Source of the DNA: Thiomargarita sp.
GTDB taxonomy: Bacteria > Pseudomonadota > Gammaproteobacteria > Beggiatoales > Beggiatoaceae
Length of the DNA stretch: 56,822 bases
Reading direction: 5' to 3'
NCBI GenBank assembly: GCA_020718845.1
Contig: DYRG01000016.1
Coordinates: 1 to 56,822, forward strand
The position numbers and the translations under genes are program-made. Below the pieces are notes generated by a model, which worked only from the letters and a program-made list of their open reading frames with translations, made no database searches and had not been told where the DNA came from. This document shows, one piece after another, positions 51,625 to 56,670 of this stretch; the stretch's first letter is position 1, and the number at the start of each line of letters is the position of its first letter.

Positions 51625-52425
51625 ATGAATAATCCACCAGATATTTTGAAGAAAATTGTTGCTCGTAAATACGAGGAAGTTGCCGATGCAAAACAAAAGA
51701 AACCTTTAGAGAAACTTTTAGAGGAAATAAAAGAAATTTCTCAAACAAGAGGATTTGTTGCCGCATTACAAAATAAAATAAAAAAAGGTTTGCCAGCGGT
51801 GATTGCAGAAATTAAAAAAGCCTCGCCGAGCAAAGGTGTTTTAAGAGAAAATTTTCAACTTATTGATATTGCTAAGAATTATCAACAAAATGGTGCGGCA
51901 TGTTTGTCGGTGTTGACGGATCGAGATTTCTTTCAAGGTCATGAAACCTATTTGAAACAAGCTAGAAATGCCTGCGAATTACCCGTATTATGCAAAGATT
52001 TTCTAATCGATTCTTATCAAGTTTATGCGGCAAGATCGTGGGGTGCAGATTGTATCTTATTGATTGCAGCGGTATTAAATGATGATCAAATGCGAGAATT
52101 AGCAGATTTAGCAATGCAACTAGAAATGGATGTGTTAGTGGAAGTTCATGATCAACTTGAATTAGAACGTGCTCTAAAATTACCCTTACCAATGATTGGC
52201 ATTAATAATCGCAATTTACGCACGTTTGAAACACGATTAGAAACAACGTTGGAATTAAAAAAATATGTTTCTGATGATCGATTGATTGTTACTGAAAGCG
52301 GCATTTTAACTTCAGAAGATGTTGCTCTGATGAGAAATGCCGACATTCAAGCCTTTTTAGTCGGCGAAGCGTTTATGAAAACCAACGACGAAGGATTAGC
52401 CTTAAAACAGTTGTTTTTTCTATAG
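51625..52425 (+). CDS. trpC: Indole-3-glycerol phosphate synthase
   Basis: It forms the indole ring in tryptophan synthesis. ATG 51625, preceded by AAGGAAAG, gives 266 residues with [52 protein letters not shown] and VTESGI. Other trp genes are not adjacent. Confidence 0.95.
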
Positions 52426-52439
52426 CATTTTGGTAGAAT
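52411..52439 (+). promoter_or_regulatory. Candidate promoter for the reverse transcriptase unit
   Basis: TTGTTT (52411-52416) and TAGAAT (52434-52439) with 17-base spacing, at the 3' end of trpC. A transcript would begin near 52446. Confidence 0.45.
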
Positions 52440-52445
52440 AATCTC

Positions 52446-52681
52446 GCTTCTAAATTTAGTTTGGAAGGATCATTGTCATAATTTGAGTTAAGTCAAATGT
52501 CATATCCACGTCATTTGTGAGCCTCCGGTTATATCAGTAATGTAATTATAAGTTGAAGCGCAGACTGCCGTTGTCACAGAAATGTGAAGTTAGAGTGAGG
52601 GAGAAAGTTGTAAGGTGCTGCTGCCTATTGTCTCTCCTCATCTTTCTCTCCTCTCAGTGTTTTTCACTCCGTAAGGTTTAT
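52446..52681 (+). ncRNA. Candidate structured RNA template upstream of the reverse transcriptase
   Basis: 236 bases lie between the predicted promoter and the reverse transcriptase start. Hairpins seen: CAAATG/CATTTG (52494-52517); TCACA-GAAA-TGTGA (52574-52587); a long stem GAGG-GAGAAAG with CTTTCTC-t-CCTC (52597-52607 with 52642-52653); and AGTG-TTTTT-CACT (52656-52668). One frame is stop-free from 52541 to the reverse transcriptase ATG. Known DRT2 systems have an upstream RNA of similar size that is copied by the enzyme; the assignment here rests on position, structure and that frame, not on a covariance match. Confidence 0.6.
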
Positions 52682-54307
52682 ATGAATGATGATCCTGAGT
52701 GGTTCAAGCCAAAATCTATAATTCATTTTGATAGAAAATGCTCTTATGAACGTGTTTTAGAATACGTTTCAAATCCCAAAAATATAGAAAAACATTCTTT
52801 TTATCCATTTATTCATTTTGGTTTAATTAAATCTAAGTATAAACGTGAAAAATCCGACGACAATAAAAAAGGTAAATTAGTACCTGAACTTAAAAAAAGA
52901 AATATTTCTTATGCAAGTCATTTAGATGGACATATCTTTTCTTTTTATACTTACAAATTAAGAGAAGAATATGAGGCTTTATTAGAAAAAGAAGGGTGTA
53001 ATGAGAGCGTTATTGCGTATAGAAAATTAGAAAAATCTAATGTTGATTTTGCGTGTGATGCTTTTAAAAAGTTAAAAGAACTTTGTGAAACAAATGAACA
53101 GAGTAATTTCATATCTATTTGTTATGATATAAAAGGTTTTTATGATAATCTTGATCACAAAATTCTAAAAGAGCAATTATGTGATGTTCTAAAAGTAGCT
53201 AAATTACCACTTGATTATTTTAAAATTTATAAAGCACTTACAACTTTTTCATGGGTTGATAAAGAAAATTTACTCTCGACATTAGGTCTTAATAAAAGAC
53301 GATTACGTTCTATTCATTGTTATTGTGAAAATGGTGAAGAATTTAGAAATAAAATCAGAGGAAATAATTTAATTAAGAAAAATGATGAAAAGTTTGGAAT
53401 ACCACAGGGTTCTTCTATAAGTCCTCTTTTTTCAAATATTTATATGTTACCTTTTGACAGAGAAATGACTAAATATGCTAAAGAAATCGGTGCTTTTTAT
53501 CAACGTTATTCAGATGATATTTTATGGATATGTGAACAAAGCCATTTCGTTGTTTCTCAACAAAAAATACAAGAAGAAATATCTAAATTATTATTAAAAA
53601 TAAATGAAGAGAAAACAAAAGAATCTTTATTTAAATACAGCAACAACAAAATTGAAAATCTTCCACTAAAAGATAATAAAATTACCCCATTGGAATATTT
53701 AGGTTTGATGTTTAATGGTGAATCTTGTTTTATAAAAAATCAAACACTTTCAAGATATTACGTTAAATTGACTAATTTTATAAAAAGATCAAAAAGATTC
53801 GCTGCATATTCTAAAAAAGATAATGGAAAAATATATTTAAGAAAACTTTATAATCGATTTTCTCATTTATGTAAGGAAAAAGATAAAAAAACGAATTTTA
53901 TTTTGTATGCCAGAAATGCTCGCCGTAAACTTGAAGAAGAGGGATTAAAGTCTGGCATAAGTCATCAAATTAAAAACCATTGGAAGTTTATTCATCAACA
54001 ATTAAGAGGAAATAAAATCATGGAAGTTGAAGTTATTGGTGTTACCCGTACGTTTGGAAAAAATAAAGAGGGCAAAGAAACTGATTTTGTAAAACTTTTT
54101 ATTTTACAAACTATCAAGGGTTCTAAACGTAAAGAATTACAAGAAGAAGGAGTTGGGCAAAAGGCAGAAGATGTCTATGTTGATATTTCACTTTATGATA
54201 AGTTAAAAGAATTAACTTATCCATGTCATCTTCGTTTAACCACAGAAACCGATTTTTCTCACGGAAACATGGTTCAAAAAATAACAAGTTTCGAAGAGAT
54301 TAAGTAA
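52682..54307 (+). CDS. Antiphage-type reverse transcriptase, DRT2 (UG2)-like, with C-terminal extension
   Basis: ATG 52682 follows AAGG; the frame is open back to 52541, but that part overlaps the structured RNA. The first 60 residues (DPEWFKPKSIIHFDR, HSFYPFIHFG) and ISYASHLDGHIFSFY match what I recall of DRT2. Catalytic core: DIKGFYDNLDH (Asp149), GIPQGSSISPLFSNIYM (239-255), YSDD (276-279), LEYLGLMFNGE, and the end RFSHLCKEKD and QIKNHWKFIHQQL. No maturase or HNH domain and no retron motif is visible. Residues 447-541 are an extra domain starting at Met447, which has its own AGAGGA site at 54005. Canonical DRT2 proteins end about where this extension begins. Confidence 0.82.
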   Translation: MNDDPEWFKPKSIIHFDRKCSYERVLEYVSNPKNIEKHSFYPFIHFGLIKSKYKREKSDDNKKGKLVPELKKRNISYASHLDGHIFSFYTYKLREEYEALLEKEGCNESVIAYRKLEKSNVDFACDAFKKLKELCETNEQSNFISICYDIKGFYDNLDHKILKEQLCDVLKVAKLPLDYFKIYKALTTFSWVDKENLLSTLGLNKRRLRSIHCYCENGEEFRNKIRGNNLIKKNDEKFGIPQGSSISPLFSNIYMLPFDREMTKYAKEIGAFYQRYSDDILWICEQSHFVVSQQKIQEEISKLLLKINEEKTKESLFKYSNNKIENLPLKDNKITPLEYLGLMFNGESCFIKNQTLSRYYVKLTNFIKRSKRFAAYSKKDNGKIYLRKLYNRFSHLCKEKDKKTNFILYARNARRKLEEEGLKSGISHQIKNHWKFIHQQLRGNKIMEVEVIGVTRTFGKNKEGKETDFVKLFILQTIKGSKRKELQEEGVGQKAEDVYVDISLYDKLKELTYPCHLRLTTETDFSHGNMVQKITSFEEIK

Positions 54308-54346: not shown

Positions 54347-54444
54347 ATTACCCCGAACAGTTATCCAATTTAGAAATTAGTCTCGCAGAGGTAAAATACC
54401 ATTCCATTGTTTTTTAACTTCGCAGCAATTGTGTTAAGTAGGGC

Positions 54445-54540
54445 TTGAGCAAACATGAGAAAGAAGTTGATTATCTTAAAAGAGAAGTCATTTACTTATC
54501 CGAAGAAAACTCCCGCCTCAAACGGAACATCTACGATTAA
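54445..54540 (+). pseudogene. Short coiled-coil remnant
   Basis: From TTG 54445 the frame reads HEKEVDYLKREVIYLSEENS, a strong heptad pattern ending naturally. It is probably the 3' end of a lost gene; alternative frames in the same place are equally short. Confidence 0.3.
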
Positions 54541-56032: not shown

Positions 56033-56452
56033 TCAAATATTTTCTATCCATAACATATTGTTTTTATAAATGGTTTGTTGAACGCCTTGATAAAACTTTA
56101 AATCAGCGGTTACAACCTTCCCATCTAACAATATTGCTAAACTCAGATACAGACAATCATAGAAACTACGAAAAGTTTGATTAGCGATTTCAAATGCACG
56201 TTGAATTAAGTGTGTATTATCATGCCATTCTAACGGAACACTTTGAATATCTTGCAAAATAGCATTAGCTATGTCTAAAGTAATTTCATTTCGACGTAAT
56301 TTCTTGCAAATAATATTAGTTATTTCTAGCAAAGCAAGTTGAGGAACATGAAGTTGATAATCAATGTGTTGTAATTTAAAAGAATATTCGCTATAGATTT
56401 CAGGAATATACCATTTGATCGCTACACTCGCATCAACAACTAAAATGCTCAT
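56033..56452 (-). CDS. PIN-domain toxin (VapC-like)
   Basis: 139 residues with LVVDASVAIKWYIPE (Asp6), LALLEITNIICKKL, FYDCLYLSLAILLDG and VTADLKFYQG. This is the VapC type of PIN toxin with the first motif DASVAIKW. It overlaps its antitoxin by 4 bases and precedes ntrC by 17 bases. Confidence 0.85.
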   Translation of the reverse strand: MSILVVDASVAIKWYIPEIYSEYSFKLQHIDYQLHVPQLALLEITNIICKKLRRNEITLDIANAILQDIQSVPLEWHDNTHLIQRAFEIANQTFRSFYDCLYLSLAILLDGKVVTADLKFYQGVQQTIYKNNMLWIENI

Positions 56453-56670
56453 TTATCTCGTTCCTCTCTCAATAATTCAGCACTGTCACTAAATTGTTGA
56501 TTAGATTGATTTAATTGATTAAAAATATTATGTGCAGTTTTCCAAGTTTTAATAGGAAGTTCCTTTTCTACAGGTAAAACAATGACCTCAACTTGTTGCT
56601 TAAAATATTGGGGAATCTGAATTGTTAAACTATTTCCCATTATCGTATGTATTTCTCTCAGGGCTTGCAT
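56449..56670 (-). CDS. Antitoxin partner of the PIN toxin
   Basis: 73 residues with LTIQIPQYFKQQVEVIVLPVEK, an AbrB/VapB-like strand pattern, and an acidic C-terminal helix ending ELLREERDK. Antitoxin-first order with ATGA overlap. Confidence 0.75.
   Translation of the reverse strand: MQALREIHTIMGNSLTIQIPQYFKQQVEVIVLPVEKELPIKTWKTAHNIFNQLNQSNQQFSDSAELLREERDK

Follow-up and report, generated by a model that had tools for sequence, protein, structure and literature searches.

In the DRT2 systems studied, the neo gene lies antisense to the ncRNA, in its central template, and both its promoter and its open frame arise only where two repeats join, as described in passages of PMC12039810 and PMC11100668. 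For the Klebsiella system, an account in PMC11100668 reports that defence is lost when stops are placed near the end of one repeat, and that one-base insertions reduce it more than 1000-fold. The uninterrupted frame is taken as essential because of these stop and insertion results. The pipeline described in the same source accepted as neo those genes that lack in-frame stops, and its authors found divergent clades hard to annotate.

The window analysed here is the whole of contig DYRG01000016.1 from Thiomargarita sp. (56,822 nucleotides). It resembles the Klebsiella pneumoniae DRT2 (UG2) system with neo in the full length of its reverse transcriptase (RT), which belongs to the same clade, in an upstream gap the size of an ncRNA, and in an antisense −10 box, Shine-Dalgarno sequence and ATG that stand in the expected order. 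It differs in having neither an ACA/ACA jump pair nor a stop-free antisense frame with a plausible −35. The intergenic stretch is also shorter (about 236 nt as compared to 280), and the RT has YSDD instead of YCDD together with an extra C-terminal part. The locus is situated between trpC (IGPS) and an NtrC-like regulator. G+C content of the RT region is about 25–28% against 31–50% around it, as expected for an acquired gene. Two observations concern the surroundings of the RT. At 54440–54540, after the RT, one frame reads EKEVDYLKREVIYLSEENSRLKRNIYD and then a stop (by eye), which looks like a coiled-coil or transposase-like end and is a possible remnant. At 56033–56670 there is a PIN-domain protein with a small partner gene, likely a toxin–antitoxin pair.

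The reverse transcriptase and its C-terminal part

The RT open reading frame (52682–54307, plus strand) encodes 541 residues. It scores 422.6 bits against the NCBIfam Drt2 equivalog NF041746.1 (cut-off 390), which covers residues 7–441, and it is matched by PADLOC to Drt2 (PDLC03757, E 3.1e-132). The predicted structure of the RT part is a confident model, and the solved chains closest to it in structure comparison are Drt2. All 35 columns that are invariant across 38 sequences are kept in the window RT, and there is no stop in it. The window locus is a DRT2-clade defence locus, and the resemblance to DRT2 pointed out in the earlier sequence-only reading is confirmed. The same applies to its suggestion of a new branch: in a quick tree of 98 RTs the window RT forms a long separate branch (end branch 1.13, highest identity 41%), loosely beside three proteobacterial loci (SH-aLRT 83). 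A search for close relatives in a sample of 57 genomes (E 1e-20) returned one, the window's own. Within the class 3 of 369 were found including itself (E 1e-30; the best other is 38% identical), within the phylum 2 of 398 including itself (E 1e-40), and no relative of the protein in viral_contigs.

The RT of the studied DRT2 systems has no extra domains, whereas the window RT carries about 95 additional residues. The C-terminal 96 residues resemble RstB of CTX-type filamentous phages, matching phrog_929 with an E value of 5.8e-7 from profile position 1; searched alone against PF07459, the tail reaches 21.7 bits (E 0.00025), below the cut-off of 26.2. The single-sequence structure model of the tail (pLDDT 69.5) matches, in the rows shown, largely OB-fold proteins, mostly SSB-type chains, with Foldseek E values of 0.16 or worse and VIA Z of at most 7.5, and the weak matches include filamentous phage Pf3 and gene V proteins. 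We read the tail as a probable ssDNA-binding domain fused to the RT, and it may hold single-stranded cDNA. It differs from RstB of the CTX-type phages in that the similarity is weak, the domain is fused to an RT, and no gene of the filamentous-phage Zot family turned up when the genome was searched. Searches with the tail gave no match to the PDB by sequence, no match to phages and plasmids up to E 1, no relative in viral_contigs and no second copy in the genome. Nothing was found at E 10 among 7967 ORFs of related loci (97 loci) in a single-sequence search, which could miss distant RstB-like proteins.

In one related locus (L088) a single TAG ends the RT and is followed by an in-frame open extension of 162 codons. 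It was ruled out as a second C-terminal extension, since the stop precedes the extension and no significant family was found.

The region upstream of the reverse transcriptase

The features of the locus are collected in Table 1. By eye, the layout of the upstream region is that of related loci: the 5' hairpin, 11 nt to the expected junction, and the GAAA-loop hairpin 12 nt further. The putative promoter of the ncRNA–RT transcript is absent from the list given by a consensus promoter scan. The sequence-only reading had called the region structured; hairpins are predicted in it, and the 236 nt as a whole are not more stably folded than shuffled sequence (z −0.87; 34 of 200 shuffles equal or exceed its stability). 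For the final 120 nt before the RT the fold z is −0.90, with 44 of 200 shuffles at least as stable. A covariance model of the DRT2 scaffold, R1, was built from 46 of 103 related loci; it gives no match in the window and detects just 6 of 35 held-out DRT2 loci, missing 29, so that the lack of a match tells little. Rfam matches in the region are all far under the gathering scores, and three of them are miRNA families. We consider a concatemer-type ncRNA upstream of the RT plausible.

Table 1. Positions of features of the DRT2-clade locus in the window
Feature	Positions	Strand	Detail and basis
Putative promoter of ncRNA–RT transcript	52411..52439	+	TTGTTT, 17 nt, extended −10 TGG-TAGAAT; read from sequence
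Putative 5' handle hairpin	52447..52467	+	CTTCTAAA-TTTAG-TTTGGAAG; predicted fold, place like related loci by eye
Candidate template, limits ambiguous	52468..52561	+	94 nt with ATGACA −35; relatives' geometry
Candidate −35 ATGACA of junction promoter	52474..52479	−	5/6; relatives' geometry
Alternative −35 TTGACT	52491..52496	−	5/6; sequence reading
ATGA, cassette-frame stop TGA overlapping second ATG	52500..52503	−	sequence reading
ATG, 7 nt past Shine-Dalgarno	52512..52514	−	chromosome reading MTWI, then stop
Shine-Dalgarno GGAGG	52522..52526	−	pattern match
−10 box TATAAT of junction promoter	52545..52550	−	pattern match, perfect
Sense open frame of earlier reading, judged incidental	52541..52681	+	stop-free, 141 nt
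Putative 3' scaffold	52562..52681	+	GAAA-loop hairpin 52574–52587, long hairpin 52593–52655, hairpin 52656–52668; predicted fold
DRT2 reverse transcriptase part	52682..54016	+	residues 1–445, YSDD 276–279; profile and structure matches
Fused C-terminal RstB-like / predicted OB-fold part	54017..54304	+	residues 446–541; profile and structure matches

On the antisense strand upstream of the RT we find the arrangement TATAAT-N18-GGAGG-N7-ATG. A strict pattern for such a cassette (TATAAT-N14..32-GGAGG/AGGAG-N5..9-ATG), composed post hoc after the window sequence had been read, arises in 3 of 20,000 shuffles made from this stretch; the whole window, both strands counted, has it two times. A looser pattern arises in 1282 of 20,000 shuffles and also has two occurrences on the sense strand. 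In the relatives the strict pattern is present at 4 of 94 loci against 1 of 1880 shuffles, and the looser one at 32 of 94 loci against 109 of 1880. The window TATAAT lies 11 nt before a presumed junction whose position fits, by eye, the 11–13 nt that separate the junction from the next hairpin in relatives.

Between 52468 and 52561 the antisense strand has stops in all three frames (52470, 52476, 52488 and 52500; 52534 and 52546; 52493, 52511 and 52529), and therefore units with either plausible −35 are not endless. With the ATGACA −35 and the usual spacer the unit of 94 nt (1 mod 3) reads MTFDLTQIMTMIALQLIITLLI followed by a stop, and a 95-nt unit reads MTFDLTQIMTMICASTYNYITDITGGSQMTWI followed by a stop. 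The TTGACT −35 gives a unit of 77 nt (52485–52561; 2 mod 3), in which translation from the second ATG yields MTFDLTRASTYNYITDITGGSQMTWI and a stop, covering one unit and ending at the same ATGA. The protein predicted for a 2 mod 3 unit is MTFDLT...ASTYNYITDITGGSQMTWI, with 26 residues at 77 nt and 32 at 95 nt. If the gene is endless, the candidate template is 60 nt (52502–52561). Of 4113 units whose length is divisible by three and that include the −10 box and the Shine-Dalgarno sequence, 156 are open, all of them inside 52501–52591 and 60–87 nt long. No pair of jump motifs with the promoter geometry, whether ACA-1/ACA-2 or other, passes in the window, and the unit finder described below assigns it to the class "none". 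A neo-like antisense cassette is probable in the window. With an ambiguous unit, no exact jump motif, no R1 match and no close relative in the genomes sampled, a stop-start reading of it is a plausible inference.

Three other candidates for the unit were tried and rejected. A search for exact 3-nt jumps gave a sole unit, 52553–52628, without a proper promoter. Taking the TTGTCA repeat (near 52473 and 52571; 98 nt, 2 mod 3) as the jump site, as worked out by hand, puts ATGACA 21 nt from TATAAT and falls at the GAAA hairpin, and the GAAG repeat (91 nt, also by hand) leaves a spacer of 14.

The sequence-only reading had placed a concatemeric gene on the sense strand, at 52541–52681. The facts behind this proposal are correct: the frame is free of stops over 141 nt (47 codons) and is that of the RT, the quoted peptides are present, and the other two sense frames have stops (52554, 52596 and 52611; 52543, 52549, 52585, 52591 and 52672). 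Such an opening is not more than chance would give, as at least one sense frame is open in 503 of 5000 dinucleotide shuffles and this particular frame in 148 of 5000. Openings of at least 141 nt upstream in the RT frame are also found in 7 of the 103 related loci. The sequence-only reading has hairpins bracketing the segment; two of those predicted here (52574–52587 and 52593–52655) lie inside it rather than around it. No sense unit containing the −10 and Shine-Dalgarno sites is open; an endless gene, as had been envisaged, would fit on the antisense strand only, with a unit of 60–87 nt inside 52501–52591. We reject the sense-strand gene: published neo is antisense and belongs to the central template, and the sense frame is that of the RT and covers the presumed 3' scaffold. 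From the proposal of a DRT2-like concatemer RNA, the RT family and the plausibility of a concatemer-type ncRNA stand, while the strand, the segment and probably the endlessness have to be given up.

Units in related loci and a proposed terminating neo

Our survey comprised the upstream regions of 103 related loci. Left out of it were RT matches that are partial, doubtful or cut at an edge (L007, L027, L044, L079–L081, L099, L103–L106 and L108–L135), copies of included loci (L002, L136–L139, L142 and L147) and L151. In the cDNA of the relatives the first base of the −35 is 12 nt ahead of the junction and that of the −10 is 11 nt past it, which leaves a spacer of 17 nt; unit length is divisible by three, and the frame in which the −10 codes for Tyr-Asn has no stop. 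The unit finder combined this geometry with a loose jump motif, units of 75–160 nt and a promoter score limit of 10 (other passes started from 60 nt). It assigned the 103 relatives to 72 endless, 6 stop-start and 7 other units and 18 without a unit; the geometry was derived from these same loci, for which the shuffles are the control, and near-identical loci among them (e.g. L024/L092 and L061/L062) make the counts not independent. The corresponding numbers are 25, 25, 449 and 1561 for 2060 shuffles and 1, 3, 31 and 68 for the opposite strands of the 103 loci. The unit is 87–150 nt long in the 72 endless relatives.

Jump motifs other than ACA were seen in L012, L034, L039, L052, L057 and L070, often across the boundary and with unchanged promoter geometry; examples are GT/TATC in L039, GCGT/AA in L052, TGT/CTTT in L034 and GT/TAACA in L012. 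L034 and L012 fall into the "none" class of the finder because their promoters score 9/12 and the limit is 10. In L008, from a Nitratidesulfovibrio plasmid, the junction promoter is perfect and the unit has 145 nt (1 mod 3); its concatemer would read through all three frames before a stop, giving about 99 residues. L008 and the window both contain CGTGGATATGA (cDNA sense).

The stop-start loci are of two kinds. In L038, L054, L060 and L067 from Pseudomonas (the host of L067 is Pseudomonas helleri) the unit is 125 nt, and in L140, drawn from Pseudomonas and with an RT 57% identical to that of L067, it is 131 nt, both 2 mod 3. In all five the ORF from the Shine-Dalgarno ATG crosses the junction, covers one unit and stops at a TGA overlapping the following ATG (ATGA). 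In L046 the unit is 108 nt and the one-unit neo MNSKPNPMSGIFIKLFIIVDLDILLEILYNISGGN ends with TAA directly ahead of the ATG. Strict criteria (ACA-N3-TGTCAA, −10 of at least 5/6, jump of at least 2.5/3, GGAGG or AGGAG plus ATG) recover all six stop-start loci and four endless ones, and 0 of 10,400 shuffles. L054 and L140, both held out from R1, score 74 and 65 bits against it, which means an ordinary DRT2 scaffold. Five of the six loci form one branch. Its sister (SH-aLRT 80 for the two together) also jumps at ACA/GCA and has endless units of 132 nt (L045, L061, L069 and L141–L143). With the template ends fixed, a full-unit ORF arises by chance in 1911 (L038), 1741 (L067), 3271 (L140) and 980 (L046) of 5000 cases. 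A unit of 124 or 126 nt in the stop-start branch would meet a stop a few codons past the junction, as worked out by hand on one printed unit. Judged from these sequences, terminating neo looks like a DRT2 variant; neither such a gene nor an RT–RstB fusion is described in the passages of PMC12039810, PMC11100668 and PMC12596737 covered here.

Like the Pseudomonas branch, the window has an antisense ORF that ends in a TGA overlapping an ATG. The Pseudomonas loci differ from it in that their ACA/GCA jump motif, their promoter and their unit of 125 or 131 nt are clear, whereas the unit in the window is ambiguous. ATGA is situated 6 nt past the Shine-Dalgarno sequence in the Pseudomonas branch, as compared to 18 nt for the restart ATG in the window.

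Readings of the window locus and their meaning

The reading we put first, tentatively, is that the window holds a DRT2 variant in which an antisense gene with a stop-start overlap is combined with an RT fused to an ssDNA-binding-like tail. In this model the RT would bind an ncRNA starting near 52446 and copy the central template repeatedly into head-to-tail cDNA, with the OB-like tail holding the single strand. After second-strand synthesis the repeat junction would place a −35 beside TATAAT, and the antisense gene would be transcribed. The window gene would terminate where TGA overlaps ATG (ATGA), so that each repeat would specify one short protein, and ribosomes would restart at the overlap, as we propose for the Pseudomonas DRT2 branch. 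A broader version, to which we give less credence, is that DRT2 has, besides endless neo, a second coding mode in some branches. A 2 mod 3 unit with the TGA/ATG overlap would then give either a polycistron whose short proteins are all identical or, through a −1 slip at ATGA, an endless one, and the window would be an independent deep case whose RT has an ssDNA-binding domain of its own.

It is also conceivable, but rather unlikely, that the window contains a decayed or misassembled endless neo, in which the RT is intact and the template has lost one base, so that the antisense frame now stops after four codons. The well-placed Shine-Dalgarno sequence and ATG do read just MTWI before a TGA, a 2 mod 3 unit needs one more base to be divisible by three, and there is one carrier genome among those sampled. 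However, five loci of the Pseudomonas branch retain ATGA down to 57% RT identity, which shows that it can be stable, and the window RT has no stop and retains the residues invariant in 38 sequences. Unlikely as well, and ranking below decay, is an antisense neo that is endless and built from a very short unit such as 52502–52561, which would encode (MTWICASTYNYITDITGGSQ)n. These 60 nt are an open multiple of three with the −10 at +11 and an in-frame ATG 7 nt past the Shine-Dalgarno sequence, the unit ends share two of three bases (ATA/AGA; jump by eye), and the 156 open units among 4113 agree with a short endless gene. Against it, the usual place of the −35 is occupied by TGACGT (1/6), or by ATGACG (4/6) if the spacer is 18 nt, and 60 nt falls below the range of the 72 endless relatives.

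The deep branch, the fused domain and the lack of an R1 scaffold match would suit an RT that works by a different scheme, e.g. one in which the effector is templated DNA that the OB-like domain holds, and in which the antisense cassette is incidental. We find this doubtful, since the cassette is improbable by chance (although by a post-hoc pattern) and stands at the expected distance from the RT, and R1 misses most divergent DRT2 loci as well. A concatemeric gene on the sense strand from 52541 to 52681 is highly improbable. Many internal sense units would stay open along its 47 codons, but an open frame arises in 10% of shuffles, the segment runs across the presumed 3' scaffold into the RT, neo as published is antisense, and sense units with the −10 and Shine-Dalgarno sites are closed.

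If a natural, conserved terminating neo is real, it is the gene rebuilt across the junction that is needed, and endlessness is not. Terminating neo could then account for some of the branches without an annotated Neo. The fusion of the RT to an ssDNA-binding domain, if true, would hint at how the first-strand concatemer is handled.
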